DNA from: Gordonia crocea
Lineage (GTDB): Bacteria; Actinomycetota; Actinomycetes; Mycobacteriales; Mycobacteriaceae
Assembly (NCBI RefSeq): GCF_009932435.1
Contig: NZ_BJOU01000018.1
Location: 1 to 41,962 of the forward strand
Direction: 5' to 3'
DNA length: 41,962 bases
Program-made: the position numbers and the translations under genes
Part shown: positions 9,122-38,734 of the stretch, one piece after another
How positions within the stretch are numbered: the first letter of the stretch is position 1
Layout: the number at the start of each line of letters is the position of its first letter
The notes under the pieces: generated by a model
Databases searched by the model: none
What the model was told of the DNA's origin: nothing
Seen by the model: the letters and a program-made list of their open reading frames with translations, nothing else

Positions 9122-9198
9122 GGGCCCAGTCGGCGAGATCGAGGGCCCAGTCGGCGGGAATGAGGGCCCAGTCGGCGGGAATGAGGGCCCAGTCGGCG
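9122..9198 (-). repeat. Stop-codon-proximal 21-bp repeat array A (4 copies)
   Basis: Four copies of the 14-bp core CGCCGACTGGGCCC (minus-strand sense) at 9122-9135, 9143-9156, 9164-9177 and 9185-9198. The 7-bp spacers read TCATTCC, TCATTCC and TCGATCT. The array begins one base after the TAA of the minus-strand thioesterase gene and, on its other side, abuts the TGA of the HxlR gene. It fills the entire gap between these convergent genes. Same family as arrays at 14888, 30891 and 34406. Confidence 0.95.
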
Positions 9199-11774: not shown

Positions 11775-11778
11775 GCGC

Positions 11779-14887: not shown

Positions 14888-15027
14888 CGCCGACTGGGCC
14901 CGTTTTCCCGCCGACTGGGCCCTCATTCGTGCCGACTGGGCCCTCTTTCCCGTCGACTGGGCCCTCATTCCTGCCGACTGGGCCCTCATTCCTGCCGACT
15001 GGGCCCTCATTCCTGCCGACTGGGCCC
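14888..15027 (+). repeat. Stop-codon-proximal 21-bp repeat array B (7 copies)
   Basis: Seven copies of the core CGCCGACTGGGCCC starting at 14888, 14909, 14930, 14951, 14972, 14993 and 15014. First base is C or T, and copy 4 has GTCGAC in place of GCCGAC. Spacers are GTTTTCC, TCATTCG, TCTTTCC and then TCATTCC three times, so the downstream end is the most uniform. The first copy starts 9 bp after the TAA of the toroid gene and is in sense orientation. The array ends 14 bp before the KstR-type box of the next gene. Confidence 0.95.
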
Positions 15028-23716: not shown

Positions 23717-24625
23717 TCAGAGCCCGAACAACTGCGCGGCGTTGTCGTGCAGGACGCGGCGCAGCCAGTCGTCGCCGAGGTCGAGCCGGATCAGCGCCTC
23801 GATGCCGTGGGCGTAGCGGTAGGGGATGTTGGGGTAGTCTGATCCCCAGAAAACCTTGGCGCCCAAGGCTCTCACTCGGGGCAGTGCCTCGCGGGGGTAC
23901 GGCGCATCCGCTTCGGCGAAGTCGGTGAAGCTCATCGTCGTGTCCAACCCGATGTTCTCGTAGCGCTCCGCGAGGTCGAGGAAGTCGAGGTACTCAACGG
24001 TCCCCATGTGCGCGATGATCAACCGCAGTCCGGGGAACCGGGACAACACGTCGGCGACCGGCCCGGGGCCGGTGTGCCGACCCGGCGCCGGACCCGAGCC
24101 GCAGTGGATGATGACCGGCAGGCCGGCGTCGGCGACGAGTCCCCAGACAGGGTCGAGCAGCGGGTCGGACGGGGAGAAGTCGCCGACCTGCACGTGCACT
24201 TTGAAAATGCGCGTCCCCGCCTCGATCGCCGCCGCGGTGTACTGCGCCGCGCCGGGCTCCGGGTAGAAGGTCGAGGTGTGCAGGCAGCGCGGCTCGCGGG
24301 CGGCGAAGTCGACGGCCCACGAGTTCAACCACGCGGCCATGTCGGGTTTGTGGGCGTAGATCATCGACGTGAACGCGCGCACCCCGAACGCCTCGAGACC
24401 GTCGACGCGGGCCTGCTCGTCGGCGCGGTAGGTGATCGGCCAATCCCGGCCCAGCAGCGGGCCGGCCGAGTCGAAGTAGGCCCAGACCTTGTCCATCACA
24501 TTGCCCGGCATGAAGTGGGTGTGGATGTCGATCACCCCGGGCAGCCCGAGCGGCTCCCACAACGCTCGGACAGCAGCGGCGTCGGCCGGGGAGAACGGTG
24601 TCGTCACGTCATCGTCGGAACACAC
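23717..24625 (-). CDS. Amidohydrolase-2 family hydrolase
   Basis: A 302-residue TIM-barrel metal hydrolase or decarboxylase of the amidohydrolase-2 (ACMSD-related) family. The metal-binding motif DIHTHF is near residue 33, with later ligands in IIHCGSG and IIAHMG and the family's final acidic residue in FWGSDYPNIPYRYAHG. The mid-region KVHVQVGDFSPSDP contains the Lys/His pair often seen here. The start could be GTG 24625 or GTG 24607; neither has a strong ribosome site. It lies 37 bp downstream of the epimerase-type gene on the same strand and may share its transcript. Substrate unknown; ring-cleavage products or CoA-free acids are plausible. Confidence 0.87.
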   Translation of the reverse strand: MCSDDDVTTPFSPADAAAVRALWEPLGLPGVIDIHTHFMPGNVMDKVWAYFDSAGPLLGRDWPITYRADEQARVDGLEAFGVRAFTSMIYAHKPDMAAWLNSWAVDFAAREPRCLHTSTFYPEPGAAQYTAAAIEAGTRIFKVHVQVGDFSPSDPLLDPVWGLVADAGLPVIIHCGSGPAPGRHTGPGPVADVLSRFPGLRLIIAHMGTVEYLDFLDLAERYENIGLDTTMSFTDFAEADAPYPREALPRVRALGAKVFWGSDYPNIPYRYAHGIEALIRLDLGDDWLRRVLHDNAAQLFGL

Positions 24626-24662
24626 GGACCCAGACTAACCCCGCCCCGGCGGGCGGGTCGGA

Positions 24663-25640: not shown

Positions 25641-25713
25641 GGCGGTCTCCTCTGCGGTGGGCGGAACGGCTGGTGGTCTCGGATGGCGGATCCGGGAAAC
25701 GTGCTCTATTCTA

Positions 25714-25735
25714 AAACTAGAACACGTTCTAGTTT
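25714..25735. promoter_or_regulatory. Perfect KstR-type palindrome in a divergent promoter
   Basis: A perfect palindrome with arms AAACTAGAAC (25714-25723) and GTTCTAGTTT (25726-25735) around AC. The core TAGAACACGTTCTA (25718-25731) fits TNNAACNNGTTNNA exactly. It stands between the epimerase-type gene (start 25640) and the acyltransferase-FadD12-WS/DGAT-hydrolase operon (start 25815). The 174-bp gap holds no other clear feature. Confidence 0.85.
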
Positions 25736-25814
25736 CCTCGATGGCCCGCGGGCCGCCGATGGTGAAACGACAATAAAGAGCAGGGAGTCGATCGATACGA
25801 AGGGGGTGGCGACC

Positions 25815-26633
25815 GTGGCCGAAGACAAGTCGCAGCCGGTGCCGGAGAAGGGCTCGCAAGCCCGCTGGGACCCCGAGTGGGTGGCCCGCGTCCTACCGCT
25901 GCTCAAGACCATCGCCAAGGTCTACTTCCGCTCCGAGGTGCGCGGGATGGACAAGGTGCCCGACGGGGGAGTGTTGCTGGTCAGCAACCACTCCGGCGGC
26001 ATGGTCGCCTACGACGTCCCGCTCATCGCGGTCGCCTTCGCCGACGAGTTCGGCGCCGACCGACCGTTGTGCACGCTGGCCCACGACCTGGTGTTCCTGG
26101 GGGCGGGAGACACCATCTTCGGCAAGTTCGGCTTCCTGCGCGCCCATCCGCGCAACGCCGTCGCCGCGCTGCGCGAGGGCATGGCGACGCTGGTGTTCCC
26201 CGGCGGTGTCTGGGACGCGATGCGGCCCACCTCGGCGTCGGCGAAGATCAACTTCAACGGCCAACAGGGTTACGTGCGCACCGCCATCATAGCAGGGGTG
26301 CCGATCGTCCCCATCGTCACCATCGGCGGCCAGGAGACCCAGCTGTTCCTCAACGACGGCGCGGGCCTGGCCAAACTGTTGCGGCTGGACAAGCTGATCC
26401 GGGCCACCCGGGCGCCGCTGACCTTCGGCTTCCCCTTCGGGCTCACGCTGGGCATGCCGCCCAACGTGCCGCTGCCGTCGAAGATGGTGACCCAGGTGCT
26501 CGACCCCATCGACATCACCGCCGAGTTCGGCGAGGACCCCGACATCGACGCCGTCGACGAGGAGATCCGGTCGCGGATGCAGGCCGCCCTCGACGAACTC
26601 GACCGCGACCGTCGATTCCCGATCATCGGGTGA
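25815..26633 (+). CDS. Lysophospholipid/diacylglycerol acyltransferase-like protein (PlsC family)
   Basis: A 272-residue membrane-associated acyltransferase. The catalytic motif is a variant, VSNHSGGMVAYD, in place of NHxxxxD, followed by the substrate motif LVFPGGVWDAMRP in place of FPEGTR; both variants are usual in the actinobacterial branch of the family. The central GYVRTAIIAGVPIVPIVTIGG is the hydrophobic GVPIVPV-like strand. It probably transfers an acyl group from CoA to a glycerol- or lysolipid. GTG 25815 is favoured because AGGGGG ends 8 bp upstream; GTG 25806 is an alternative. It is the first gene of a four-gene operon corresponding to Rv1428c next to fadD12 in M. tuberculosis, as I remember that map. 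Confidence 0.87.
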   Translation: MAEDKSQPVPEKGSQARWDPEWVARVLPLLKTIAKVYFRSEVRGMDKVPDGGVLLVSNHSGGMVAYDVPLIAVAFADEFGADRPLCTLAHDLVFLGAGDTIFGKFGFLRAHPRNAVAALREGMATLVFPGGVWDAMRPTSASAKINFNGQQGYVRTAIIAGVPIVPIVTIGGQETQLFLNDGAGLAKLLRLDKLIRATRAPLTFGFPFGLTLGMPPNVPLPSKMVTQVLDPIDITAEFGEDPDIDAVDEEIRSRMQAALDELDRDRRFPIIG

Positions 26634-26637
26634 GGCC

Positions 26638-28278
26638 ATGACCGCGTTGCGCAACCGACTCAGCCACTACGCGTGGATCGTCCGCGTCTTGGTGTCCAGC
26701 GGATTCCTCACCCTGCTGCGCCCCGACCGCTACCTGCGGATGGGGTTGTCGTTGCGCCGCCAGGGCGGGACGAACGCGGTCAGCGGCATCGGCCTCGCCG
26801 CCGCCCAATACCCCGACGCCGTCGCCCTGCACGACGAGGCCGGCTCGCTGACCTGGGCGCAACTCGACGCCCGGGCCGACGCGCTGGCCGTCGGGCTCAG
26901 TGAGTCGACCGTCCGGCCGCCGCGCACCGTCGCGATCATGTGCCGCAACCACCGCGGCATCGTCGAGGCGATCGCCGCGACGATCCGGTTGGGCGCCGAC
27001 GCGGTCCTGCTCAACACCGGGTTCGCCGGGCCGCAGCTCGCCGACGTCCTCAAGCGCGAACAGGCCGACATCCTCATCGCCGACGACGAGTTCGCCGGCC
27101 TCATCGACCATGCCCGCCAATCTGATTCGGGCCTGCGGTGCCTGTGGTCGTGGCAGGAGGGGATCGGCCTGCGCGCCGATCCCGGCACCGTCGAGCACCT
27201 CATCTCCTCCCGGATGGGGCAGCGCCCGGCGCCGCCGCGCAAACCCGGCCGGATCATCCTGCTGACCTCGGGCACCACCGGCACCCCCAAGGGCGCCAAG
27301 CGCGGCGCCAGCGGATCGGACGTCTCGTCGCTCGCGGCGATGCTCGACCGCATCCCGTGGCGCGGCGGGGAGACGACGGTCATCGCGGCCCCGATCTTCC
27401 ACGCCTGGGGCTTCGGCCAGATGGCCATCTCGTCGACGATGCACGCGACGATGGTCATGCGTCGCCGGTTCGACCCGCAAGGCACGCTCGACCTCGTGCG
27501 CGACCACGGTGCGAGCGGGCTCGCCGTCGTCCCGGTGATGCTCGAACGGATCATGGACCTGCCCGTCGATGTGCTCGACGCCAAGCCGATGCCGACGCTG
27601 CGGTTCGCCACCGCCAGCGGGTCGCGGATGCGCGCGGAATCGCTCACCGCCTTCATGGACCGCTTCGGCGACGTGGTTTACAACAGCTACAACGCCACCG
27701 AGGCCGGTCTGATCAGCACCGCGACCCCGGCCGACCTGCGGATCGCCCCGGACACCGCCGGGCGGCCCATCGCCGGCACCCGGGTGCGGATTCTCGACGA
27801 CGATCGGCGCCCGCTCCCGGTCGGCGAGATCGGCGTCATCGCGGTGGCCAACGAGTCGGCCTTCGACGGATACACCGGCACCGAGACCAAGGACTACGCC
27901 GACGGCTACATGCTCTCCGGCGACGTCGGGCGGATCGACGGGAACGGCCTGCTCTACGTCGTCGGACGCGACGACGAGATGATCGTCTCCGGCGGCGAGA
28001 ACGTCTACCCGCTGGAGGTCGAGCTGGTCCTCGACGCCCACCCGGGGGTGGCCGAGGTCGCGGTGATCGGCGTCGACGACGAGAAGTTCGGCCAGCGGCT
28101 CGCCGCCTTCGTCGTGCGGTCCGGCGGTTCCGACGTCGATGCCGACGCGTTGAAGGCGCACGTGAAGAGCCAGCTCGCCGGGTACAAGGTGCCGCGCGAC
28201 ATCCATTTCATCGAACTGTTGCCCCGCAACGCCACCGGCAAGGTGCTCAAGCGCGACCTCACCGAGGAGGGACGATGA
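26638..28278 (+). CDS. fadD12: FadD12-like acyl-CoA ligase
   Basis: A 546-residue AMP-forming ligase. It has an N-terminal extension of about 40 residues before the core (AQYPDAVALHDEAGSLTW), the phosphate loop LLTSGTTGTPKGAKRG, the YNSYNATEAGL adenine motif, YMLSGDVGRIDGNGLLYVVGRDDEMIVSGGENVYP hinge region pieces, and the catalytic lysine in NATGKVLKR. It would make acyl-CoA for the flanking acyltransferases. The gene lies between a PlsC-type acyltransferase and a WS/DGAT gene, the same company that fadD12 (Rv1427c) keeps in M. tuberculosis, which supports the name. ATG 26638 is 4 bp after the preceding stop. Its TGA overlaps the next ATG by 4 bp (ATGA). Confidence 0.88.
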   Translation: MTALRNRLSHYAWIVRVLVSSGFLTLLRPDRYLRMGLSLRRQGGTNAVSGIGLAAAQYPDAVALHDEAGSLTWAQLDARADALAVGLSESTVRPPRTVAIMCRNHRGIVEAIAATIRLGADAVLLNTGFAGPQLADVLKREQADILIADDEFAGLIDHARQSDSGLRCLWSWQEGIGLRADPGTVEHLISSRMGQRPAPPRKPGRIILLTSGTTGTPKGAKRGASGSDVSSLAAMLDRIPWRGGETTVIAAPIFHAWGFGQMAISSTMHATMVMRRRFDPQGTLDLVRDHGASGLAVVPVMLERIMDLPVDVLDAKPMPTLRFATASGSRMRAESLTAFMDRFGDVVYNSYNATEAGLISTATPADLRIAPDTAGRPIAGTRVRILDDDRRPLPVGEIGVIAVANESAFDGYTGTETKDYADGYMLSGDVGRIDGNGLLYVVGRDDEMIVSGGENVYPLEVELVLDAHPGVAEVAVIGVDDEKFGQRLAAFVVRSGGSDVDADALKAHVKSQLAGYKVPRDIHFIELLPRNATGKVLKRDLTEEGR

Positions 28279-29735
28279 CCGGACTGCAGCGACTGTCGGG
28301 CAACGACGCCCTGATGCTCAACATGGAGAATCCGACGACGCCGATGCACACCCTCAAGGTGGCCATCGTCGACCCGTCGCGGCGCGGCCGCCCGATCACC
28401 CTGGACGAGCTCGTCGACGTACTGCCCCACTACCTCGGACACTTCCCGCGTGCGACACAGCGCGTGGAGGCGGCATCGGCGACCTACTCGGCGCGCCCGT
28501 TCTGGGTGGCCGACGAGAACTTCGACGTCAGCGCCCACCTCGACGAGCGGACCGCAGCCGCCCCCGGCGATCGTCGGGCGCTCGACACAATCCTGACCGA
28601 GCTGTCCGTCGAACAACTCGACCGGTCGCGGCCGCTGTGGGCGCTGACCCTCGTGAACGGCCTCGCCGACGGCCAGCAGGCCATCGTCGTGCGGGTCCAC
28701 CACGCCGTCGCCGACGGCTTGGCCGCCCTCAACACGTTCATGACCGCCACCGCCGAGCGGGGCGGCACGGTGGCGCCCGCCCCGGTCGGCGACATCGAGG
28801 CGGTGCAGCGCGAAGAACTGCTGCGCACTGCGCGCGCCGAGTCCAAGAAGCTCTTCCGGGAGGTGCCCAAGGCCACCGGCCGGCTGGTCAAGGGCATCGT
28901 CACCTCGCGGCGGTTCGAGAACCGGCACCTGGTGCCCAAGCCGATGGAGTCGTCGCGCAACAGCTTCTCCGCACCCAGCGGCGGCGAACGGCGTTGTGCC
29001 AGTGCGAGTCTGCCGCTCGCGCAATTCCAGCAGATCGCCGTCGCCACCGGGACCACCGTCAACGGCGCCCTGCACGGGGTGATCGCCGGGGCCAAGCGCG
29101 CCGAGATGATCGCCCGCAGCGAGGACCTGCGCTCGCCGGCGGTGACGGTGTTCGGGGTGGCCGCCGACATGGCGTCGACGCGCACCGCGGGCAATGAGAT
29201 CTCCACCGCGCTGGCCTATCTGCGCACCGACATCGCCGACCCGGTGCAGCGGCTGACCGCGACCGCGCAGAGCTGTGCCGCGGCGGTCACCAAGCGGCGC
29301 AGCATCGGCTTCGAGCTGACCGACCAGATCGCGGTCTACACCGGCCGCACCGGCCCGGTGTTCCGCAAGCTGGCGGCCCCGGTCACGCCGCGCGTCGTCA
29401 ACAACATCACCACGGCCAACCTGCCGGGTCCCCGTGAGACCCGCTGGGTGGGCGACATCGAGGTGGTGGACTGGATCTCGTTCGCGCTGGCGATCGCGCC
29501 GGCCGACGTGAACCTCACCGCCTACAGCTATGCCGGCCGGATCAGCATGGGGCTCATCACGACGCCGGAGTCGATGCCCGATCCGGAGGGTTTCCTCGAC
29601 CGCGTGCGCGAGTCGCTGCACGAAGTGCGCACGGCGTTGGTCGAGCGGGGGATGTTGGCGGCGCAGGACGCCGACCAATCAGCGGCCAAGCCGCCCACCA
29701 ATCCCGCGGCGAAGCCGCCCAAGAGAGTCGAGTAG
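28275..29735 (+). CDS. Wax ester synthase / diacylglycerol acyltransferase (WS/DGAT)
   Basis: A 486-residue acyltransferase that esterifies acyl-CoA onto diacylglycerol or a fatty alcohol, giving storage triacylglycerol or wax. The catalytic motif HHAVADGLAAL (HHxxxDG) is near residue 142. The N-terminal LSGNDALMLNMENPTTPMHTL is the usual family start, and the second-half motifs NGALHGVIAGAKR and NNITTANLPGPRE (the NVPGP-like strand) are both present. Members are peripheral membrane proteins on lipid bodies. It is coupled to the upstream ligase by an ATGA overlap. The C-terminal tail is a low-complexity KPP/NPAAKPP stretch with no counterpart in the core family. Confidence 0.93.
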   Translation: MTGLQRLSGNDALMLNMENPTTPMHTLKVAIVDPSRRGRPITLDELVDVLPHYLGHFPRATQRVEAASATYSARPFWVADENFDVSAHLDERTAAAPGDRRALDTILTELSVEQLDRSRPLWALTLVNGLADGQQAIVVRVHHAVADGLAALNTFMTATAERGGTVAPAPVGDIEAVQREELLRTARAESKKLFREVPKATGRLVKGIVTSRRFENRHLVPKPMESSRNSFSAPSGGERRCASASLPLAQFQQIAVATGTTVNGALHGVIAGAKRAEMIARSEDLRSPAVTVFGVAADMASTRTAGNEISTALAYLRTDIADPVQRLTATAQSCAAAVTKRRSIGFELTDQIAVYTGRTGPVFRKLAAPVTPRVVNNITTANLPGPRETRWVGDIEVVDWISFALAIAPADVNLTAYSYAGRISMGLITTPESMPDPEGFLDRVRESLHEVRTALVERGMLAAQDADQSAAKPPTNPAAKPPKRVE

Positions 29736-29740
29736 CCATC

Positions 29741-30889
29741 GTGGGTCTGACCATCTGGGATACGACTGTGGCCCGCGTGGGTCTGTTCGCCAACGTCGTG
29801 CCGCGGGCCGTCGCCAGTGCGCGCGCGGCGAAGAACGGCGATGAGCGCCTGGGCATTCCGCCGTCGAAGGTCGGCGCGCGCACGGTGGGCGAGTCGGCCG
29901 TCGACGAGCTGTTCGTCGCCCTCAACTCGGTGCTGCGCGACGTGTCGGAGATCGACGACCTCGCCGCCGCGGTGCAGCGTTGCGACGCGGCCGCGCCGGT
30001 GCTCACCGAGCTCGGGGTCACCGGGGTCAACCGCCCCCAGCCGGTGCCGACGATCTTGCGGCGCAGCCGCAAGCGCTTCACCACGACGGTCTACGACCAC
30101 GTCGACTTCAAGCTGGACGTCGACCTGCCCGAGCCGATGGCCGCCTATGCGCCCTACCTCGACGGAGTGTCGTCGGCGCGGGTGCTGGCCCACGAGGAGC
30201 CGGGCCGGCGCTGGATCATCTGGGTGCACGGTGCCGGGCAGGGCCGTCCCGACGACATGTTCTCGTTCCGGGCCGCCCACCTGCACGAGAAGCTGGGATA
30301 CAACGTGGTGCTGCCGGTGCTGCCGGCGCACGGCGCACGGCGGCACCCCAACGTCGCCTTCCCGGGTTTCGACCCGTTGGAGAACATCGCGGTGACGATT
30401 CGGGCGGTCGCCGAGATCCGGGCGCTGGTGTCTTGGATCGGCGCGCAGGATCCGGCCGAGGTGACCATTGCCGGGACGTCGCTGGGCGGACCGTTGGCCG
30501 GACTCGTCGCCGGGTTGGAGCCGTTGGTGTCCTCGGTGTTGGCGTTGGTGCCGATGCTCGGCGTGCACACGACGCTGGCCCACCACATGGACCGGGTCGG
30601 CAAGATCGGCCGGGAGGCGGCCGCGCTGCTGCGCTCGGACAGTGTCCGAGCCGTCTCGTCGGTCGTCGACCCGCTGGCGGTGACGCCCTATGCGGAGCCG
30701 GACCGGAGGTTGGTGATCGCCGCGCTCAACGACCGGGTGACCTGGGTGACCGCGGCCCAGAAACTGCACCACCACTGGGGTGGCCGGATCGAGTGGTACG
30801 CCGGCGGGCATGTCGGCCACGTGTTCTCTGGCCGAGTCCGCGAACTCACCGACGAGTTCTTGGCCGAGGCCGCCGCTGCGACCCCCTAA
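29741..30889 (+). CDS. Alpha/beta-hydrolase fold protein, LipO-like position
   Basis: A 382-residue alpha/beta hydrolase. The oxyanion region IIWVHGAGQGRPDDM is near residue 160. The nucleophile elbow is VTIAGTSLGGPLAGL (G-x-S-x-G), with a later acid in AALNDRVTWV and histidine in GGHVGHVFSGR. About 140 residues precede the catalytic domain, with no signal peptide. It is the last gene of the acyltransferase/FadD12/WS-DGAT operon and starts at GTG 29741, 5 bp after the previous stop. In M. tuberculosis a lipase gene (lipO) is found beside fadD12, so an acylglycerol or ester hydrolase role is likely. Repeat array C begins one base after its TAA. Confidence 0.83.
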   Translation: MGLTIWDTTVARVGLFANVVPRAVASARAAKNGDERLGIPPSKVGARTVGESAVDELFVALNSVLRDVSEIDDLAAAVQRCDAAAPVLTELGVTGVNRPQPVPTILRRSRKRFTTTVYDHVDFKLDVDLPEPMAAYAPYLDGVSSARVLAHEEPGRRWIIWVHGAGQGRPDDMFSFRAAHLHEKLGYNVVLPVLPAHGARRHPNVAFPGFDPLENIAVTIRAVAEIRALVSWIGAQDPAEVTIAGTSLGGPLAGLVAGLEPLVSSVLALVPMLGVHTTLAHHMDRVGKIGREAAALLRSDSVRAVSSVVDPLAVTPYAEPDRRLVIAALNDRVTWVTAAQKLHHHWGGRIEWYAGGHVGHVFSGRVRELTDEFLAEAAAATP

Positions 30890-30890
30890 T

Positions 30891-31009
30891 CGCCGACTGG
30901 GCCCTCTTTCCCGCCGACTGGGCCCTGATCTTCGTCGACTGGGCCCTCATCTTCGTCGACTGGGCCCTCTTTTCCGCCGACTGGGCCCTCGATCTCGTCG
31001 ACTGGGCCC
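30891..31009 (+). repeat. Stop-codon-proximal 21-bp repeat array C (6 copies)
   Basis: Six cores at 30891, 30912, 30933, 30954, 30975 and 30996. Copies 3, 4 and 6 read CGTCGACTGGGCCC and the rest CGCCGACTGGGCCC. Spacers are TCTTTCC, TGATCTT, TCATCTT, TCTTTTC and TCGATCT. The array starts one base after the TAA of the hydrolase gene in sense orientation, and ends before a small GAGCG-A-CGCTC palindrome (31015-31025) that touches the stop of the convergent gene. Confidence 0.95.
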
Positions 31010-31023
31010 TCGATGAGCGACGC

Positions 31024-32355
31024 TCAAGCGTCTTTGACGGTCTCGGTTGCTTCGACGACAAGGTCGGGTGTGGCCTCGCCAAGAACCTCGTCGCGGTCCT
31101 CGGGCACGATGAATCCGGCCGCGATCGCGGCGTCGGTGGCGTCGGCGTAGCTGCGCAGGTAGTCCGACGACGAGCGGTAGCGCTGGGCGAGCACCTCGTC
31201 GGGAATCGGGTGGGTTGACCCGAACAGCAAACAGATCCGCGAAACGGGTTCGGGCACAATGCCGCTCAACACCTGGGTCGGCACCTCGACACACGGGGTG
31301 CGGACCCCGCCGCGAACGTTGCCCACCTCGTCGGGAACGAACGCCGGGTCGTCAGATCCATTGAGCTGCAACGGCTCTGCGGAAGGCGGCGGGTCGCCGC
31401 CGCGGGCCCAGCGATCCAAATGTCGCAGTGCCGCGCGCAGCACGAACCGCTGTTGGCTGCGGTTCACCGGATCCGGGCAGCCGAGGAATTCTTCGAATGG
31501 TCCGATCTGTGCCAGGTCGGCATGGGCGGCCCCGGCCACCTCCCACACCCGCAACGAATCCGAATCTGATTGTCGCGCAAGGTAGTAGCGGAAGTTGGTG
31601 AGCAGATCGGTCTCGGTTTGCACGACGAGGACCGGCGCCCCGACGTCGGGGATGCTCGTCGGGTCTCCGGAGAACGCGACGGAGATGTCGGCCGGGCCGC
31701 CGATATCCCCGAGGGGGAGTCCGGCAACCGCCCGACTGTGGACCAGGTAGCCGTCGAAGACTTTGTGCACCGGCGCGAAGGCCGACACGTAGGTCGTCAG
31801 GGCCATCGCCGACTGCGATTCGCCGACCGCGAGGATGCGGTCGACGATCAGCCCACCCAGCGGCCCGCCCGGCCCCCGCAGCGCGGCGGCTACCGCGGCG
31901 AACAGGTCGTAGCAGTACGCGTCGCCCGGGTGCTTCATCTGGGCGTACCGCTGCGGGTCCTTCGCGGCAAGGCCGCTCGGACCGGCATCGACCTCGACCG
32001 ACCCGGTGCCGCCCTCGACGCCGGTGTACTGCGCGGACACCCCGGCCCACGCGTGGCCGGCCCGGACCAGTTCCTCTGCGACGTAGGTGTATTCCGGTGC
32101 CGCGTCGGCTCCGCTGCTCACATTGAGCCATTCGACGACGAGGGTGCCGCTGAACGACTCCGGCGTGCTCGGCCGGCGGACGAGGACGCGAGTGGTGAAC
32201 TCGGCCGGCGGGGCCTCGCCGTCCCGCGTGAGCCCGGACACGACGCCGGTAGCGGCGTACTCGGTCTCGGTGTAGCCGTGCGCGGCCAGGTCGGGGCCCG
32301 GCGTTGCGCTCATGAGGGAATGTCCGGCACCGCCGGTGAGTTCGACGAAATCCAC
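31024..32355 (-). CDS. Alpha/beta-hydrolase-domain protein (Abhydrolase_10 type)
   Basis: A 443-residue protein resembling the family whose members carry an alpha/beta-hydrolase domain with a GxSxS-type elbow. The nucleophile is in ILAVGESQSAMAL near residue 190. There is an aspartate in VVQTETDLL and a histidine in VAGAAHADLAQIG, which complete a plausible triad. The early LVVEWLNVSSGADAAPEYTYVAEELVRAGHAWAGVSAQYTGVEG is the family's conserved strand/helix region. GTG 32355 is 2 bp after the stop of the preceding gene; a longer frame to 32436 would overlap it. It is the last gene of the leftward half of the cyp51 locus. Substrate unknown, perhaps an ester or lactone made upstream. Confidence 0.83.
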   Translation of the reverse strand: MDFVELTGGAGHSLMSATPGPDLAAHGYTETEYAATGVVSGLTRDGEAPPAEFTTRVLVRRPSTPESFSGTLVVEWLNVSSGADAAPEYTYVAEELVRAGHAWAGVSAQYTGVEGGTGSVEVDAGPSGLAAKDPQRYAQMKHPGDAYCYDLFAAVAAALRGPGGPLGGLIVDRILAVGESQSAMALTTYVSAFAPVHKVFDGYLVHSRAVAGLPLGDIGGPADISVAFSGDPTSIPDVGAPVLVVQTETDLLTNFRYYLARQSDSDSLRVWEVAGAAHADLAQIGPFEEFLGCPDPVNRSQQRFVLRAALRHLDRWARGGDPPPSAEPLQLNGSDDPAFVPDEVGNVRGGVRTPCVEVPTQVLSGIVPEPVSRICLLFGSTHPIPDEVLAQRYRSSSDYLRSYADATDAAIAAGFIVPEDRDEVLGEATPDLVVEATETVKDA

Positions 32356-32357
32356 GG

Positions 32358-32756
32358 TCAGTCCTGCTTCTGCGCCTTGCGCCAATTCTTGATGGCGGTG
32401 CCGAAGACGGTGTTCATCTTGGTGCCGACCGGCCAACCGGCGTAGTAACAGAGGAACAGGGCGATCTCCTCGAGCTGCTCGGGGGTCAGCTCCTCTTTGC
32501 CCAGTGCCGCCCCGGCTTGGATCTCCGCGACGTCGACGTGGCCGTTTCCGGCCAACAGGCCCAGGAGCAGCAGCCGACGATCACGGTCGGTGAGTGCGTC
32601 ACGCGTCCACACCTCGGCGAACAGCTGATCGGCGGTGTGCGCGAAATGCAGTCCGGGACCGTCGGACATGTCCCAGCCGTACACCTCCGACATCTTCGCC
32701 ACACCGCGCTTGCGGTGCTCGGTGCCCTCGCCGCCTACGGCGGTTCCTGAACTCAT
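32358..32756 (-). CDS. Carboxymuconolactone decarboxylase/AhpD-family protein
   Basis: A 132-residue helical protein resembling the carboxymuconolactone decarboxylase family (Rv0771-type by position). The family pattern is seen in LFAEVWTRDALTDRDRRLLLLGLLAGNGH and LEEIALFLCYYAGWPVGTKM. There is one cysteine at the usual active-site helix but no CxxC pair, so peroxidase activity of the AhpD type is unlikely. Its ATG overlaps the TGA of the preceding dehydrogenase gene by 4 bp, so it is translationally coupled. The locus suggests that it acts on an oxidised lipid or lactone intermediate; this is inference. Confidence 0.88.
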   Translation of the reverse strand: MSSGTAVGGEGTEHRKRGVAKMSEVYGWDMSDGPGLHFAHTADQLFAEVWTRDALTDRDRRLLLLGLLAGNGHVDVAEIQAGAALGKEELTPEQLEEIALFLCYYAGWPVGTKMNTVFGTAIKNWRKAQKQD

Positions 32757-33622
32757 GCGTTGACTCCTTTGTCTTCGGCATCGGGAACACCGAATCCCGA
32801 CGCGAGGTTGGCGCGGGCGATGGTGCCCAGGGGAAGGTCGACGTCGAGCTGGCGGCCCAAGGCCAAGGCCAGATCGAGATCCTTGCTGCCCAAGTTCACC
32901 ACGTGGGTGAATACGCCGTACCAGAAGTCGTCGGGATCGATCGGTGCGGTGGTGTTGCGCAGCATGATTGCCCCGGCACCGCCGGTGATGGCGTCGGTGT
33001 GGCGCACCACTTTGCCGAGTTTCTCGATGTCGATCCCGGCGGCCTCGGCCAGGCGCTGTGCCTCCGACGCCGCATTGAATGAGATGAAATGCAGGAGATT
33101 GCGCGCCAGCTTCATCCTGGTGCCCGCGCCGACCTCGTCGCCCGCGTGGACGAGCATGTCGCCGGCCAACTTGAACGGCGGCTTGATCTGCTCATAGGCC
33201 TCCCGCGGTCCGCCGACCATGATGGCCAGCCGACCCTGCTCGGCGCCGGGTGCGCCGCCGGAGATGGGAGCATCCATCAGGTGGACACCCTGCTCCGCGC
33301 AGGTTGCCGACAGCTCAATCGCTGTCTCCGGGCTGATCGTCGAATGGACGGTGATCACCGTGCCCGACTTGGCCGTCGTGAGCAGGTCGCCGACCACCGA
33401 GCGCACCTGCGCGTCGTTGACGACGCAGATCCCGATGACGTCGGCCTGTTCGCCGAGCGCGGCCAGCGAGTCGGCCTTGGCTGCACCCTTCTCGACCAGC
33501 TTGGCGACGGCCTCGTCGGACAGGTCGAAGACGGTCAGGCCGCCCGGCCAGGCGGCGAGCCGCCCGGCCATCGGGCCGCCGATGTTGCCCAGGCCGACAT
33601 ATCCCAGACGAACGTCGCTCAT
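32753..33622 (-). CDS. HIBADH-like NAD(P)-dependent beta-hydroxyacid dehydrogenase
   Basis: A 289-residue dehydrogenase of the 3-hydroxyisobutyrate dehydrogenase/6-phosphogluconate family (Rv0770-type by position). The Rossmann motif GYVGLGNIGGPMA is at residues 6-18. The substrate-binding motif is DAPISGGAPGAEQGRLAIMVGG, and the catalytic lysine and partner are in GAGTRMKLARNLLHF (G-xx-K-xx-N). ATG 33622 overlaps the upstream SDR stop (ATGA). It probably oxidises a short beta-hydroxy acid or aldehyde derivative made by the neighbouring SDR and aldehyde dehydrogenase. Confidence 0.92.
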   Translation of the reverse strand: MSDVRLGYVGLGNIGGPMAGRLAAWPGGLTVFDLSDEAVAKLVEKGAAKADSLAALGEQADVIGICVVNDAQVRSVVGDLLTTAKSGTVITVHSTISPETAIELSATCAEQGVHLMDAPISGGAPGAEQGRLAIMVGGPREAYEQIKPPFKLAGDMLVHAGDEVGAGTRMKLARNLLHFISFNAASEAQRLAEAAGIDIEKLGKVVRHTDAITGGAGAIMLRNTTAPIDPDDFWYGVFTHVVNLGSKDLDLALALGRQLDVDLPLGTIARANLASGFGVPDAEDKGVNA

Positions 33623-34356
33623 GGTCGGTAGACCTGCCCGCCGTCGACGTTGAAGATCTGGCCGGTGATCCAGTTGGCCTCGTCGGAGAGGAGGAACTTG
33701 CACATGCCGACGTGGTCCTCCGGCTTGCCGAATCGCTTGAGCGGCAACTGCTTGACCATGTCCTCGACCATTTCGATCGGGGTGGTGGTGCGGGTCGCCT
33801 CGGTGTCGGTGGGCCCGGGGGCAATCGCGTTCACGCGGATGTTGTTGCCGCCCAGTTCGGTGGCGAGCTGGAAGGTGAGGTTGTTGATGCCCGCCTTGGC
33901 GAGGCCGTAGAAGCCGCTGTAAAGGTAAGCGGCGGTGGAGGACTGGTTGACGATCGAGCCGCCGTCCTTCATGTGCGGGTAGACCGCGCGGGTCACCGCC
34001 AGCGCCCCGTCGAGGTTCACGCTCATGAACTTCTTGTAGTAGTCCCACGGCACGGTGATCAGGAAGTCCAGCTTCATCCCGCCGTAGATGGCGGCGTTGT
34101 TGACCAGGCCGTTGATGTTGCCGTAGCGCTCGACGGCGGCTGCGGCGAGTGCCTCGGCGGATTCCGGGTCGGAGACGTCGGTGTGCACGTACAGACCGCC
34201 GATGTCGGCGGCGACCTTCTCGCCGGCCTCGTCGTTGAGGTCGGCGACGACGACGTTGGCGCCCTCTTCGGCCAGGCCTCGGGCGTAACCCTCGCCGATG
34301 CCGCCGGCGGCGCCGGTCACGATGATGGTCTTGTTGTCGAAGCGTCCTGAACTCAT
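33619..34356 (-). CDS. Short-chain dehydrogenase/reductase
   Basis: A 245-residue classical SDR (Rv0769-type by position). The cofactor motif IIVTGAAGGIGEG is at residues 11-23, followed by an acidic VVVADLND that favours NAD. LVNNAAIYGG is the NNAG-type motif, the catalytic serine is in IVNQSSTAAY, and the tyrosine/lysine pair is in FYGLAKAG. VNAIAPGPTDTEA is the usual loop after the active site. ATG 34356 has AGGA upstream. Its leader contains the TTGGG-rich repeat at 34373-34390, and array D lies between it and the aldehyde dehydrogenase gene upstream. Confidence 0.92.
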   Translation of the reverse strand: MSSGRFDNKTIIVTGAAGGIGEGYARGLAEEGANVVVADLNDEAGEKVAADIGGLYVHTDVSDPESAEALAAAAVERYGNINGLVNNAAIYGGMKLDFLITVPWDYYKKFMSVNLDGALAVTRAVYPHMKDGGSIVNQSSTAAYLYSGFYGLAKAGINNLTFQLATELGGNNIRVNAIAPGPTDTEATRTTTPIEMVEDMVKQLPLKRFGKPEDHVGMCKFLLSDEANWITGQIFNVDGGQVYRP

Positions 34357-34372
34357 TGGGTTGTCCTATCTA

Positions 34373-34390
34373 TTGGGTTGGTTGGGTTGG
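34373..34390. repeat. TTGGGTTGG tandem pair in an SDR leader
   Basis: TTGGGTTGG occurs twice in tandem, followed by TGTGG. The plus strand, which is the template for the SDR gene, has four short G runs that could form a two-layer G-quadruplex. It lies 17 bp from the SDR start codon. Confidence 0.7.
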
Positions 34391-34405
34391 TGTGGATGGG
34401 ATTGA

Positions 34406-34503
34406 GGGCCCACTCGACGAGATCGAGGGCCCAGTCGACGAGATTGAGGGCCCAGTCGGCGGGAATGAGGGCCCACTCGGCGGGAATGAGGGCCCAGTCG
34501 GCG
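34406..34503 (-). repeat. Stop-codon-proximal 21-bp repeat array D (5 copies)
   Basis: Five cores (minus-strand sense CGCCGACTGGGCCC and variants) at 34406-34419, 34427-34440, 34448-34461, 34469-34482 and 34490-34503. Two copies have GAGTGGGCCC instead of GACTGGGCCC, and two have CGTCGA. The copy at 34490-34503 directly abuts the TGA of the aldehyde dehydrogenase gene, with no base between, and reads in that gene's sense. Confidence 0.95.
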
Positions 34504-35970
34504 TCATGCCGGCCTCGCGACGGCCTTGGACTCGAGGTATTCCTCGAAGCCGGCGACGCCCATCTCGCGGCCGATGCCCGACTGCTTGTATCCGCCGAAC
34601 GGGACGTCGGCGGCGTACCAGATGCCGCCGTTGACTCCCATCGTCCCGGTGCGAACCCCGTTGACGACGTGGTTGATCCGCGTCTCGTCGGTGCCGTAGA
34701 CCATGCCCGACAACCCGTACGGGGAGTCGTTGGCGATGCGGATCGCGTCGTCGTCGCCGTCGTGGGGGATGATCACGAGGACCGGGCCGAAGATCTCCTC
34801 CTGGGCCACCCGGGCGGAGTTGTCCAGGCCGGAGATCAGCGTCGGTTCGACGAAGTAGCCCTTTTCCTTGCTCGCGGGCCGACCGCCGCCGATCTCGACG
34901 GTGCCACCCTCGTCGACGGCGAGCTTGATGTAGCTCTCGACGCGCTCGCGCTGCTTGGCCGAGATGAGCGGACCGCAGATGGTGCCCGGCTTGGCCGGGT
35001 CGTCGGCGGGCAGGCCGGCCATCGCGTCGCGCGTGGCGGTGATGGCCTCGTCGAGCTTCTCGCGCGGAACCAGCAGGCGGGTGGTGATCGCGCAGCCCTG
35101 GCCGGCGTGGGTGACGACGTTGAACGCCGCCATCGAGCAGGCGCCTCGCAGGTCGGCGTCGTCGAGGACGATGAACGCGGACTTGCCGCCGAGCTCGAGG
35201 AACACCTTGGTCAGGGTTTCCGACGCGGCCACCATGACCTTGCGGCCGGTGGCGGTGGACCCGGTGAACGACACGATGTCGACGCGGGGGTCGCGCACCA
35301 GCTGCTCGCCCAGCGCGTGATCCGACGAGGTCACGATGTTCACGACGCCTGGCGGGAAGTCGGTCTCCTCGGCGATCACCTTGCCGACCAACGCCGCGGC
35401 CCACGGGGTGTCCGGGGCGGGCTTGAGGACGACGGTGCAGCCGGCCGCGAGGGCCGGGCCGATCTTGGCGAAGTTGATCTGGTGCGGGAAGTTCCACGGC
35501 GTGATCGCCCCGACGACGCCGGCCGCCTCGTAGCGGATCTCGCGCACGTTGGGGATCCCCATCGGCTTGGCCTCACCGAGGTCTTGGGTCCACTGGTAGT
35601 TGTCGGCGAGATCGGCGAAGTAGCCGAGGTCGTTGACCGGGCCCTCGAACTGCGGCCCGCCGGTGAGGAAGCTCGGGCAGCCGATCTCTTCGGTGGCCAG
35701 CGCGCGGAACTCCTCGGAGTGGGCGAGCAAGGCGTCGCGCAGCTGGCGCAGACAGGTGGCGCGGAAGGCGTGGTCGCGCGACCAGTCGGTGGTGTCGAAG
35801 GCGCGGCGGGCGGCGTCGATGGCGGCGTCGAGATCGTCGGCGCCGGCGTCGGCGGCCTGGCCGATCACCGCCTCCGTCGCAGGATTGACGATGTCGAAGG
35901 CGCCAGCCGATCCGGGGACGAGTTTTCCATCAATGAGCAGTTCGGAGCTGGTTTCCGGGCGCAAGGCCAT
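34504..35970 (-). CDS. aldA: Aldehyde dehydrogenase (AldA-like)
   Basis: A 488-residue NAD(P)-dependent aldehyde dehydrogenase. It begins MALRPETSSELLIDGKLVPGSAGAFDIVNPATE, close to the M. tuberculosis AldA opening. Visible family sites are the GVVGAITPWNFPHQ strand, FTGSTATGRKVM cofactor loop, the general-base glutamate in LELGGKSAF, the catalytic cysteine in HAGQGCAITTR, and FGPVLVI near the C-terminus. ATG 35970 is preferred over the longer frame because AGGGAGA sits just upstream. It is divergent from the TetR gene, and both share the palindromic operator at 36016-36037. It would oxidise an aldehyde released by the neighbouring P450 or dehydrogenase steps. Confidence 0.92.
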   Translation of the reverse strand: MALRPETSSELLIDGKLVPGSAGAFDIVNPATEAVIGQAADAGADDLDAAIDAARRAFDTTDWSRDHAFRATCLRQLRDALLAHSEEFRALATEEIGCPSFLTGGPQFEGPVNDLGYFADLADNYQWTQDLGEAKPMGIPNVREIRYEAAGVVGAITPWNFPHQINFAKIGPALAAGCTVVLKPAPDTPWAAALVGKVIAEETDFPPGVVNIVTSSDHALGEQLVRDPRVDIVSFTGSTATGRKVMVAASETLTKVFLELGGKSAFIVLDDADLRGACSMAAFNVVTHAGQGCAITTRLLVPREKLDEAITATRDAMAGLPADDPAKPGTICGPLISAKQRERVESYIKLAVDEGGTVEIGGGRPASKEKGYFVEPTLISGLDNSARVAQEEIFGPVLVIIPHDGDDDAIRIANDSPYGLSGMVYGTDETRINHVVNGVRTGTMGVNGGIWYAADVPFGGYKQSGIGREMGVAGFEEYLESKAVARPA

Positions 35971-36015
35971 GGGTTTCTCCCTTGTCGGAGGTCTGGATAA
36001 CACTGTCTGGTCCAT

Positions 36016-36060
36016 CGTCTGGACACCTGTCTAGACGTGAGTACGAATGTAGTGTAGCGT
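36016..36060. promoter_or_regulatory. Divergent promoter with palindromic operator, TetR/aldA
   Basis: A near-perfect palindrome spans 36016-36037: arms CGTCTGGACA and TGTCTAGACG around CC, one mismatch. For the TetR gene, TAGACG (36032-36037) is a -35 and TAGCGT (36055-36060) a -10 at 17 bp. The predicted start falls on the ATG at 36068, giving a leaderless mRNA. The -35 lies inside the palindrome. An extra half-site TGTCT is at 36004-36008 toward aldA. Confidence 0.62.
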
Positions 36061-36067
36061 GGCTCAC

Positions 36068-36667
36068 ATGTCCACTCCTGCACCCACCTCGGTTTCTCAG
36101 GAATCCACTCGTCGCCGGCTCTCGGCCCAGCAGGCCGAGACGGTCGCCAAGCTGACCGACGCGGCCGTCGAGGTACTGCGCACCGAGGGCTTCGACGGCC
36201 TCACGGTCCGCGCGGTCGCCAAGCTCGCCGGCGTCGCCCCGGCCACCGCGTACACGTACTTCAGCTCCAAGAGCCACCTCGTGGCCGAGGTGTTCTGGCG
36301 CCGCCTGGCCGAGGGAGTCCCCGAACCCGATCCGGAGCTGTCGACCACCGACCGCGTCGTCGCGCTGCTGCGCTCGGTCGCGCTCATCGTCACCGGCGAC
36401 GGCGACCTCGGCGGCGCGGTCACCGTCGCCCTGCTGGGCACCGACCCCGACGTCGAGCACCTGCGCCTGCGCATCGGCGGATTCATCCGCCGCCAGCTCG
36501 CCGCGGCGCTCGAGGTCGACCCCGAGAACCCCGGCCCCGTCGTCGAAGCGCTCGAAATGCTTTATGCCGGCGGCCTGGTCCATGCCGGTATGGGCCACAT
36601 GTCCTACGAGGACACCGCCGACCGCCTCACCGAGGCAGCGCTACTCATCATGCGCGACAAGCGATAA
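36068..36667 (+). CDS. TetR-family regulator of the cyp51 locus
   Basis: A 199-residue repressor (Rv0767c-type by position). The DNA-binding domain is residues about 20-65: TVAKLTDAAVEVLRTEGF then LTVRAVAKLAGVAPATAYTYFSSKSHL, a typical TetR helix-turn-helix. The C-terminal domain has no assignable ligand. The start is ATG 36068; GTG 36059 is possible, but the predicted transcription start falls at 36068. It likely represses itself, the divergent aldA, the downstream P450 operon, and, because of an almost identical site at 15066-15081, the LLM oxidoreductase. The P450 gene follows 34 bp after its stop. Confidence 0.9.
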   Translation: MSTPAPTSVSQESTRRRLSAQQAETVAKLTDAAVEVLRTEGFDGLTVRAVAKLAGVAPATAYTYFSSKSHLVAEVFWRRLAEGVPEPDPELSTTDRVVALLRSVALIVTGDGDLGGAVTVALLGTDPDVEHLRLRIGGFIRRQLAAALEVDPENPGPVVEALEMLYAGGLVHAGMGHMSYEDTADRLTEAALLIMRDKR

Positions 36668-36701
36668 CCCGACCCACCCATTCCCAGCCCAAGGAGAATC
36701 C

Positions 36702-37937
36702 GTGAGCACGACCATCGCGGGGATGCAGCACCAGCTGCCATTCGACCCGTACGCCTATGACTTCCACGAGGATCCGTACCCGACCTATGCCCGGCTGCGC
36801 GCCGAGGCGCCGGTCTACTACAACTCGGACCTCGATTTCTGGGCCCTGTCGCGGCACGAAGACGTGCGCAACGCCTTCCGCAACAACATCGCGCTGTCCA
36901 ACGCGTGGGGCGTCTCGATGGACCCGAGTGCCTATGGACCGGATGCATCGAAGTCGATGTCCTTCCTGGCCATGGACGACCCCAAGCACATGCGCATCCG
37001 CAAACTGGTGTCCAAGGGCTTCACCCCGCGGCGCGTCAACGAACTCGCCGACAACATCCGTGCGCTGACCAAGCAGCACTGGGACAAGTGCCTGGAGGCA
37101 GGCGAATTCGACTACGTCACAGACTTCGCCGCCAAGCTGCCGATGGACGTGGTCAGCGAACTGCTCGACGTCCCCCTCGCCGACCGCGCTTACCTGCGCG
37201 AGCAGTCCGACCTGCTGATCCACCGCGAAGAGGGTGTCCTCGACATCCCGGAGGCCGCCGTCCACGCCTTCCTGGGCCTCTACACCTACTACACGAATCT
37301 GCTCGCCGACCGTCGCAAGAGCCCCGGCGAGGACCTGCTGTCGGCGCTGCTCGACGCGGAGGTCGTCGACGAAACTTCCGGCGAGAACGTCAAGCTCACC
37401 GACGAGGAGATCGTCGGGTTCATGTTCCTGATGGTCGTCGCGGGCAACGAGACGACGACGAAGCTGTTGGCCAACGCCGTCTACTGGGGCTTCCGCAACC
37501 GCAGTCAGCTCGACCGCGTGCTCGCTGACCCCGACATCGTCCCGCTGTGGACCGAGGAGACCCTGCGCTTCGACAACTCGACGCAGATGGTGCTGCGCCG
37601 CGTCGTGGAAGACGTCGACTTCGGCGGCACCGTCATCCCGGCCGAGCACCGCGTACTGCTCCTCGTCGGGTCGGCCAACCGCGACACCGATGTGTTCGGC
37701 GACGACGCCGACCAATACATCCTCGGGCGCGACGTCGCGCAGAACCTGATGAGCTTCGGCCTGGGCACCCACTTCTGCCTCGGTGCCCACCTGGCCCGGC
37801 TCGAGAGCAACATCGGCCTCGACGGGGTGGCCCGCAGCGTCCGCGACTACGAACTCGACCTGGACAAGGCGGTGCGCGTGCACTCGGTCAACGTCCGCGG
37901 GTTCGCCAACCTCCCGATGAAAGTGCAGGCCCGCTGA
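36702..37937 (+). CDS. cyp123: Cytochrome P450, CYP123-like
   Basis: A 411-residue soluble bacterial P450. It has the I-helix oxygen-binding motif VVAGNETTTKLL, the K-helix ETLR in TEETLRFD, and the haem loop FGLGTHFCLGAHLARLE, whose cysteine ligates haem. FDPYAYDFHEDPYPTYARLRAEAPVYY at the start, LAMDDPKHMRIRKLVSKGFTPRR and the C-terminal VHSVNVRGFANLPMKVQAR (given in pieces) match CYP123 closely as I recall it. GTG 36702 has AAGGAG 5 bp upstream. Beside CYP51, ferredoxin and SDR as in M. tuberculosis. Substrate is not known in any species I can name. Its TGA overlaps the next ATG by one base. Confidence 0.9.
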   Translation: MSTTIAGMQHQLPFDPYAYDFHEDPYPTYARLRAEAPVYYNSDLDFWALSRHEDVRNAFRNNIALSNAWGVSMDPSAYGPDASKSMSFLAMDDPKHMRIRKLVSKGFTPRRVNELADNIRALTKQHWDKCLEAGEFDYVTDFAAKLPMDVVSELLDVPLADRAYLREQSDLLIHREEGVLDIPEAAVHAFLGLYTYYTNLLADRRKSPGEDLLSALLDAEVVDETSGENVKLTDEEIVGFMFLMVVAGNETTTKLLANAVYWGFRNRSQLDRVLADPDIVPLWTEETLRFDNSTQMVLRRVVEDVDFGGTVIPAEHRVLLLVGSANRDTDVFGDDADQYILGRDVAQNLMSFGLGTHFCLGAHLARLESNIGLDGVARSVRDYELDLDKAVRVHSVNVRGFANLPMKVQAR

Positions 37938-38734
37938 TGCCGAAGTTCCAACCGCACCCGGAGCGGCGGCCGGTGTTCGTCGCCGGCGCCTCGTCAGGCA
38001 TCGGCGAGGCGACCGCGCGCTGGCTCGGCGCCGCGGGATACCCCGTCATCCTCGGTGCGCGCCGCGTCGAGAAGTGCAAGGAGATCGGCGAGTCGATCAT
38101 CGCCGACGGCGGTGAGGCCATGGCGGTCGCGCTCGACGTCACCGACAACGACTCCGTCGTCGAGGCAGTGCGAGAAGCCGAAAGTGCCTGGGGGCCAATC
38201 GAGATCGCGATCTCCGGGGCCGGTGACCTCGGTATCGGCCGCGCCCACGAGATCCCCGTCGAGAAGTGGGCCGAGCAGATCGACATCCACCTCGTCGGCG
38301 CCTTCCGCCTCTACCGGGCGATCGTGCCGGGCATGATCGAGCGGCGCCGCGGCGACTTCGTGTTCATCGGCTCCGACGTCGCGGTCCATCCGCGGCCCTG
38401 GTCGTCGGCCTACGTGGCGGCCAAAACCGGCGTCGACGGCCTGGTCGCGACCGTCCAGATGGAACTTGAGGGCACCGGCGTGCGCGCCAGCATCATCCGC
38501 CCCGGCCAGACCATGACCGGGATGGGCATGAACCTCGACCAGGGCGAGACCGAGGCGATGCTCAACGACTGGATCGCCTTCGGCCTGGCCCGGCACGGCA
38601 ACTTCCTCGCCCCCGACAACCTGGCGCAGGCCATCGGCGCGATCGTGGCCATGCCGCCCGGCGCGCACATGCGCGTCGTCGAGGTCGAAGCCGAGGGCAA
38701 ATTGACCAAACTTCCCCAGCCGCAACAGCAGTGA
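37937..38734 (+). CDS. Short-chain dehydrogenase between the two P450 genes
   Basis: A 265-residue SDR (Rv0765c-type by position). The cofactor motif is VFVAGASSGIGEATARWLG at residues 14-31, and the catalytic Tyr/Lys pair is in SSAYVAAKTG with the serine in FIGSDVAV. The usual NNAG motif is ISGAGDLG here, so the conserved asparagine is a serine. The C-terminal part (GARHGNFLAPDNLAQAIGAIVAMPPGAH-like region) is normal for the group. It is coupled to the P450 gene by a TGATG overlap. Probably oxidises or reduces the hydroxylated P450 product. Confidence 0.9.
   Translation: MPKFQPHPERRPVFVAGASSGIGEATARWLGAAGYPVILGARRVEKCKEIGESIIADGGEAMAVALDVTDNDSVVEAVREAESAWGPIEIAISGAGDLGIGRAHEIPVEKWAEQIDIHLVGAFRLYRAIVPGMIERRRGDFVFIGSDVAVHPRPWSSAYVAAKTGVDGLVATVQMELEGTGVRASIIRPGQTMTGMGMNLDQGETEAMLNDWIAFGLARHGNFLAPDNLAQAIGAIVAMPPGAHMRVVEVEAEGKLTKLPQPQQQ

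Follow-up and report, generated by a model that had tools for sequence, protein, structure and literature searches.

Tandem-repeat arrays in Gordonia tend to mark the 3' ends of transcription units, in the sense orientation

Introduction

To our knowledge, the ends of most actinobacterial transcripts are poorly known. The repeats described here lie close to such ends, and they recall several known systems. MIRU are located between operon genes; Supply et al. (1997) are said to have described them in gene-sense orientation, overlapping stop and start codons. MIRU units are given as 40-100 bp long and as present at 41 loci (PMC2734929). REP and BIME sequences are described as abundant, species-specific extragenic repeats linked to RAYT transposases, with a suggested role in termination (PMC2817692). 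For Beggiatoaceae, 169 sets of TAACTGA direct repeats are reported as suggested binding sites (PMC4679880). For Rho-dependent terminators, the RUT rule given for RhoTermPredict is a 78-nt stretch on the sense strand with C over G and a C every 11-13 nt (PMC6407284).

The Gordonia arrays share something with each of these systems. As with MIRU, they are dispersed intergenic tandem repeats of an actinobacterium, with variable copy number and a location at codon boundaries. However, their unit is 21-22 bp long instead of 40-100 bp, none of the 83 distinct arrays that we sampled lies in a tight operon gap, and their place is often kept while the sequence changes. With REP and BIME they share extragenic abundance, species-specificity and a suggested role in termination, but REPs are palindromic and alternate in BIMEs, whereas the Gordonia arrays run head-to-tail in one orientation, with no palindromic alternation. 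The TAACTGA sets are also short direct repeats near codon boundaries; they differ in lying mostly just upstream of start codons and in having a unit of 7 nt. Finally, the arrays resemble Rho-dependent terminators in giving, on the sense strand only, about 80 nt of ribosome-free RNA after the stop with C over G and regularly placed C. In contrast to such terminators, they have a fixed tandem unit of 21 or 22 nt, a nearly invariant core that contains G, and RNA structure that is not low.

Among the matches listed in searches of the open-licence PMC literature, we found no earlier description of these repeats in Gordonia. They form a dispersed tandem-repeat family, so far of Gordonia, that tends to mark the 3' ends of transcription units in sense.

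Results

Four arrays in the window

The window, i.e. the whole stretch of 41,962 nucleotides that was analysed, is contig C18 of a 3.78-Mb Gordonia genome and contains four arrays. Array D (34406..34503, minus strand) has five 14-bp cores and four 7-bp spacers and lies 0 nt from the stop of an aldehyde dehydrogenase gene (PF00171; 34504..35970, minus; TGA at 34504-34506). The start of this gene is uncertain, with an open frame to 36015; alignments with its orthologs in seven other Gordonia genomes extend to 0-6 residues from its C-terminus. The next gene, a codirectional short-chain dehydrogenase (PF13561; 33619..34356, minus), starts 49 nt beyond the last core. Array B (30891..31009, plus; six cores) lies between convergent genes, 1 nt after the TAA of an alpha/beta-hydrolase-like gene (PF09752, PF12697; 29768..30889, plus), and the stop of the convergent gene (PF20091; 31024..32355, minus) is found 14 nt beyond its last core. 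Array A (14888..15027, plus; seven cores) begins 9 nt after the TAA (14876-14878) of a rhamnosidase-like gene (PF17389; 13793..14878, plus), and array C (9122..9198, minus; four cores) 1 nt after the TAA (9200-9202) of an acyl-ACP thioesterase gene (PF01643; 9200..10018, minus).

According to the initial annotation, which was made from the window alone, all four arrays begin 0-9 nt after a stop codon and read in the sense of the gene to which this stop belongs, in a frame that differs between arrays. The measured distances of 0, 1, 1 and 9 nt agree with this, all four arrays read CGCCGACTGGGCCC in the sense of that gene, and the frame relative to the stop does vary. The composition given there for the consensus unit, 10 C, 5 G, 4 T and 2 A per 21, is also correct.

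Two parts of the window (24342-38428 and 5840-11839) recur with 99-100% identity on contigs C3, C4, C8 (1-6000), C9 and C19 (1-6000) of the same assembly. These stretches are duplicated or mixed-strain contigs, and identical array copies from them were left out of the counts.

Core, spacer and base composition

We counted 282 copies of the 13-mer CGACTGGGCCCTC in this genome, compared with 0/1 for a reversed control. Loci were fetched mostly from its exact matches, covering contig C1 almost fully and the remaining contigs in part. They contain 92 arrays, from which 9 identical copies were dropped, leaving 83 distinct ones; locus L067 was omitted as a duplicate of L071, and loci L001-L030 were replaced by longer stretches. 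Genes were called with a purpose-written codon-usage script and not with a standard caller.

In general an array has the form (14-bp core + 7-bp spacer)n + core, which in the window's genome reads, in sense, (CGYCGASTGGGCCC + 7-nt spacer)n + CGYCGASTGGGCCC. For the family as a whole the form is (CGYYGASYGKGCVC + spacer)n + core, with a spacer of 7 or 8 nt that is mostly pyrimidine-rich and G-poor. The array length is 14 modulo 21 in 81 of the 83 arrays, so that both ends of an array fall on a complete core. Judged from 377 units, the core hardly varies at its 14 positions, apart from positions 3 (C/T) and 7 (C/G); position 1 is less variable than these two, with C at a frequency of.91. The spacer of the same units does vary: T, C and A are frequent in it, and G is scarce at all positions but the third. 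The core-to-core spacing is 21 in 282 of 290 steps. Among relatives it is 21 or 22 and rarely 20 or 23, in a detection that admitted spacings of 20-23 and double steps only.

The pooled composition of the 83 arrays is A.10, C.41, G.29 and T.20, and C exceeds G in 79 of them; array-free stretches after stop codons have a mean C-G of about 0.01. C also exceeds G in 46/47 arrays of genome G062, which we take as G. araii (100% match over 2,908 bases to the NBRC 100433 record), and in 12/12 arrays of G005 and 9/9 of G075/G078. The excess is found in 3/5 arrays of G014, is slight in G080 and is absent in the single G063 array. The C-over-G bias, in which the initial annotation saw a feature of Rho sites, therefore holds for nearly all arrays in the well-sampled species, but not for G063 and only in part for G014.

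Placement and polarity

Of the 83 arrays, 53 begin 0-20 nt after a sense stop, compared with 3.6% of 20,000 positions drawn at random from non-coding DNA of these loci (p ~7e-55). With equal cuts of 0-20 nt for sense and antisense, on which the flush counts reported here are based, 38 arrays follow a sense stop only, 5 an antisense stop only, 15 both and 25 neither. The 15 arrays that are flush on both sides lie between convergent genes, and 3 of the 25 without a flush stop are inside ORFs. A lack of preferred orientation genome-wide had been named in the initial annotation as evidence against a 3'-end role; with 38 sense-only against 5 antisense-only arrays, a preference is evident. The junctions are often tight, 42 arrays being 0-4 nt from the sense stop and 27 at exactly 1 nt. 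A first cut with a sense range (-20 to 20 nt) wider than the antisense one gave 57 sense arrays, and 37 versus 4. It is from this first cut that the hairpin, tRNA and RUT analyses below take their sets of 57, 19 and 22 arrays.

By gene context, 33 of the 83 arrays lie between convergent genes, 4 between divergent genes and 3 in ORFs, while 1 has no upstream gene in the fetched stretch. Between codirectional genes there are 30 arrays in sense and 12 in antisense. All 30 of these sense arrays are followed by a gap of at least 30 nt to the next gene, so that none of them lies in a tight operon gap, and for the 26 that are also stop-flush the distance is at least 49 nt (chance ~1e-7). In the sampled loci 113 of 243 codirectional gaps are shorter than 20 nt. 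In G. araii, 10 sense arrays between codirectional genes have gaps of 22-361 nt.

Arrays without a flush stop

By the first cut 22 arrays lack a flush stop, 3 of them within ORFs. Among the other 19, a strong hairpin is present 0-7 nt upstream in 4, compared with 20/600 random sites (p 0.005) and 1/57 stop-flush arrays. By eye, a fifth such case was recognised in the minus-strand array at L051, which has a hairpin and a T run upstream, and one array lies 7 nt after a tRNA-Leu gene, in the sense of the tRNA. The G. araii ortholog of L066 has a closely similar hairpin followed by an array of G. araii type. Of 24 no-flush arrays examined in relatives, 2 have a hairpin of this kind, and these belong to a single G. 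araii locus. The hairpin and tRNA cases indicate that the mark in some cases follows the end of a transcript unit and not a stop codon. About 13 of the 83 arrays (13 of the 19) have no visible transcript end upstream.

Further, hairpins with a stem of 7 are rarer after arrays (8/57) than after array-free unit ends (31/105, p 0.03), a hint that arrays stand in for hairpins.

Seemingly the same large ORF has internal arrays in the window's genome, G. araii and G078 (L045 3076-3131, L184, L164), with units that are species-specific.

Distribution across Gordonia

A sequence-only profile of three cores (E <= 1e-4) detected the family in at least 27 of 59 Gordonia genomes, the window's own included, with 3 to 135 matches each among the matches listed. 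In the other 32 no array was detected under strict filters applied to the best 96 candidates per genome, where a zero is not proof of absence; this indicates that the element is dispensable in the genus. Across 200 genomes of the order, again under strict filters (best 28 candidates, zeros again not being proof), only the window's genome and three single weak hits were obtained. An exact two-unit pattern matched one stretch of the genome_contigs collection, from G. araii, records near the window's genome being possibly omitted from that collection. The 13-mer also matches in G035 (12 times) and G053 (6 times), but by eye the flanks there (12/12 and 4/6 examined) are near-copies, seemingly of one coding family each.

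The unit differs between species. It is of type GGGCCC with 21 nt in the window's genome and GGGCAC with 22 nt in G005 and G014, and G. araii has two types, GTGCCC with 21 nt and GGGCAC with 22 nt. G063 has CGTTGACCGGGCGC, and G011, G008 and G080 have units like CGTCGACTGGGCGC. At three G. araii loci (L142, L143 and L146) two arrays face each other, the 21-nt type on one strand and the 22-nt type on the other.

The loci of G. araii, G005 and the other relatives were picked from high-scoring places and not at random. In these, arrays are sense-flush (0-20 nt) in 24/47 cases in G. araii (2 antisense only), 7/12 in G005 (1 antisense only), 2/5 in G014 (2 antisense only), 1/1 in G063 and 1/2 in G011/G008. 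None is sense-flush among 9 in G075/G078 or 2 in G080. A wider cut of -20 to 25 nt gives 28/47 in G. araii and 10/12 in G005. The stop-flush rule is thus shown in the window's genome and G. araii, is likely in G005, and does not hold in every species.

Orthologous gene ends

For G. araii 30 loci were fetched because of their arrays, and at 8 of these the window's genome also has an array at the orthologous position, with a different unit; for G005 this is the case at 5 of 9 loci. These matches were judged by alignment and eye, and one of the 8 G. araii cases is in an ORF. By chance about 3% of positions would be shared (83 arrays in an estimated 3,400 genes), and on this rough null the p-values are ~2e-6 and 3e-6. 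At the gene end of L036, arrays are found in the window's genome, G. araii, G005 and G074, and their units differ. At L085 and its G. araii ortholog both arrays begin 1 nt after the stop; one stop is TAA and the other TAG, and one array has a period of 21, the other of 22. Copy number varies as well: at one locus G. araii and the window's genome differ by 21 bp, i.e. one unit, and it differs at other orthologous pairs too, in all cases between species and not isolates.

At the end of the gene before array B, G063 also carries an array, with its own unit type; in G074 there is a hairpin instead, and in G. araii a dispersed element of another kind. The site of array D has other repeats or hairpins in G. 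araii, G080 and G072, and in G074, G082, G063 and G061 it is a short plain gap with no striking hairpin or repeat by eye. In G. araii this site (L132 5599-5828) contains a 17-nt tandem repeat as well as another element that looks dispersed (TGGTCTCGATAC...ACTCGACCACC); in G080, where the site (L136 7367-7450) is likewise bounded by the aldehyde dehydrogenase and dehydrogenase genes, it contains a 36-nt tandem repeat.

Orthologous flanks in the window's genome and G. araii are mostly 73-91% identical, with one locus at 97%. At this locus (L069 2225-2280; L087; L110) G. araii has an array of the window's type, in an ORF near its 3' end. The high identity is possibly due to a recent transfer.

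RNA structure and the Rho hypothesis

The RUT rule, applied without the pause-site step of RhoTermPredict, holds at 54/57 array gene ends of the window's genome, 28/28 of G. araii and 10/10 of G005. In the window's genome it holds for 15/57 of the same ends in antisense and for 72/105 array-free unit ends. However, it also holds for 55/57 composition-shuffled copies of the array ends, which shows that the test discriminates little and that composition alone suffices.

The initial annotation expected few secondary structures in the sense RNA, and this is not what we find. The mean folding energy of 34 arrays (every second of 73, followed by a length cut) is -0.397/nt, versus -0.344 for shuffles (mean z -1.7), and is about equal to that of array-free stretches after stops (-0.402/nt, n=182). 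The low structure of Rho-dependent terminators is therefore not seen in these 34 arrays. A conserved RNA hairpin can be rejected, since units fold differently between species: idealised arrays range from -0.13 to -0.52/nt, the 21-nt units of G. araii being the weakly folded ones (-0.13/nt). Nor do the arrays look like intrinsic terminators, as by eye they end on a core, with no U run.

The proposal of a Rho-dependent terminator thus agrees with the C excess and the RUT rule, but shuffled copies do equally well and structure is present. Further, some arrays stand behind seemingly intact intrinsic terminators, where little RNA would be expected, and this speaks against Rho. Judged from sequence, a Rho mechanism would be only consistent with the data. 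The broader proposal of a 3'-end role is well supported in the window's genome: the arrays are stop-flush, sense-polar and outside tight operon gaps, orthologous ends share them in part, and in a few cases a tRNA or terminator hairpin precedes them.

TAA at the junctions

In the window's genome the stop is TAA at 24 of 48 array junctions, compared with 35/318 other genes (p 2e-9). TAA goes with the 1-nt junction (20/25, against 4/22 at other distances); among orthologous array ends, several have TAG or TGA. We read this excess as copying of the left array end together with the stop codon, a process that would keep arrays uniform. Two observations count against this: the excess is not seen in G. 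araii (4/28) or G005 (0/10), and TAAC is present at one gene end both in the window's genome and in G. araii, although the former has no array there.

Several vehicles for such spread were considered. A RAYT-like route was rejected, no Y1 transposase (PF01797) being found in the window's genome. RNA-templated spread by a resident reverse transcriptase was also rejected, none being found in the array-rich genomes G000, G062, G005, G014, G074 and G008. Other genomes, e.g. G075, G036 and G078, do have one, and over the 59 genomes reverse transcriptase and arrays are weakly associated (18/27 versus 11/32, p 0.02). For a phage or plasmid origin there was no exact match in viral contigs and no BLAST match in plasmids or phages, in searches where the low-complexity filter may hide repeats. 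An apparent dependence of orientation on the replichore was an artefact, seen only among the 13-mer matches first listed.

Discussion

Polarity, stop-flush placement, avoidance of tight gaps and retention at part of the orthologous ends together point to a role as 3'-boundary elements. That the arrays act in termination is in our view the best explanation, and we would give it about as much credence as doubt. As polar elements they would keep RNA polymerase from running on into convergent genes or the next promoter. Most probably this would happen through Rho loading on RNA that, from the stop codon onwards, is free of ribosomes and has C over G; alternatively, a sequence-specific factor might act on cores two helical turns apart. 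Copying between arrays would keep the unit uniform within a species. Against the 3'-boundary reading, flush placement fails in G075/G078 and G080, and in G014 it is 2 sense versus 2 antisense only among 5 arrays. The same reading is weakened by the 32 genomes in which no array was detected, the roughly 13 arrays of the window's genome with no transcript end visible upstream, the 3 within ORFs, the arrays behind seemingly intact terminators and the plain gaps at the site of array D in four genomes. The uneven C excess in G063, G014 and G080, a RUT rule that composition alone satisfies and sense RNA as structured as other 3' DNA count against it too.

The main rival is a selfish or neutral repeat with no function of its own, which would be copied ectopically from one gene end to another (gene conversion) and would persist mostly where it is harmless, directly behind the ends of transcripts. 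We consider this possible, though on the unlikely side. It fits the patchy presence in 27 of 59 genomes, the link between TAA and the 1-nt junction, which looks as though TAAY had been copied with the left end, the TAG or TGA at several orthologous array ends, and the three arrays of the window's genome inside ORFs. However, a sense polarity of 38 versus 5, with 42/83 arrays at 0-4 nt, would require a polar mechanism of insertion or copying, and neither Y1 transposase nor reverse transcriptase was found in the window's genome. A nearly invariant core beside variable spacers, with whole-core ends in 81/83 arrays, is not what such a repeat would lead one to expect, and the lack of TAA excess in G. 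araii and G005 and the TAAC at a gene end that lacks the array also count against it.

Composition leaves the invariant core and the spacing unexplained, and both would fit a factor that binds on one face of the helix. The arrays could accordingly be multi-site targets of a putative sequence-specific protein, a polar roadblock or 3'-end factor, with cores 21-22 bp apart and a unit that drifts with the specificity of the protein. A constrained core with a variable spacer, the 21-nt spacing in 282/290 steps, the 21 or 22 with few 20 or 23 in relatives (within the detectable 20-23 and double steps), the position of arrays directly behind terminator-like hairpins, and an RNA structure and C excess not strictly kept between species all agree with it. 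But slippage by whole units likewise preserves spacing, and polar DNA-bound arrays are unusual in bacteria; we regard such a binding array as rather improbable. A translated C-terminal extension or read-through peptide (ADWALIP-like) is far less credible still, indeed close to negligible, even if a period of 21 leaves three sense frames of the consensus unit open and a few arrays are in frame within ORFs. The stop codon precedes the array in the flush cases, the distances to the stop differ in frame, and the 22-nt subfamily shifts frame with every unit. The last point refutes a conserved peptide as a general explanation and, together with the differing stop frames, bears out the statement in the initial annotation that read-through is not conserved.

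A bolder version of the termination reading is that the arrays are a bacterial counterpart of eukaryotic terminator-repeat blocks, with polar 14-bp sites two turns apart, a dedicated factor and satellite-like concerted evolution. We hold this to be doubtful; if true, the same gene ends carry a form of the site that is particular to each Gordonia species.

In general, the arrays give transcript ends a strand-specific mark that can be counted and that can stay in place while its letters are exchanged genome-wide. By comparing sister species of which only some have an array at a given gene end, one can directly test both termination and how dispersed bacterial repeats evolve in concert, and the arrays may also serve as typing markers.
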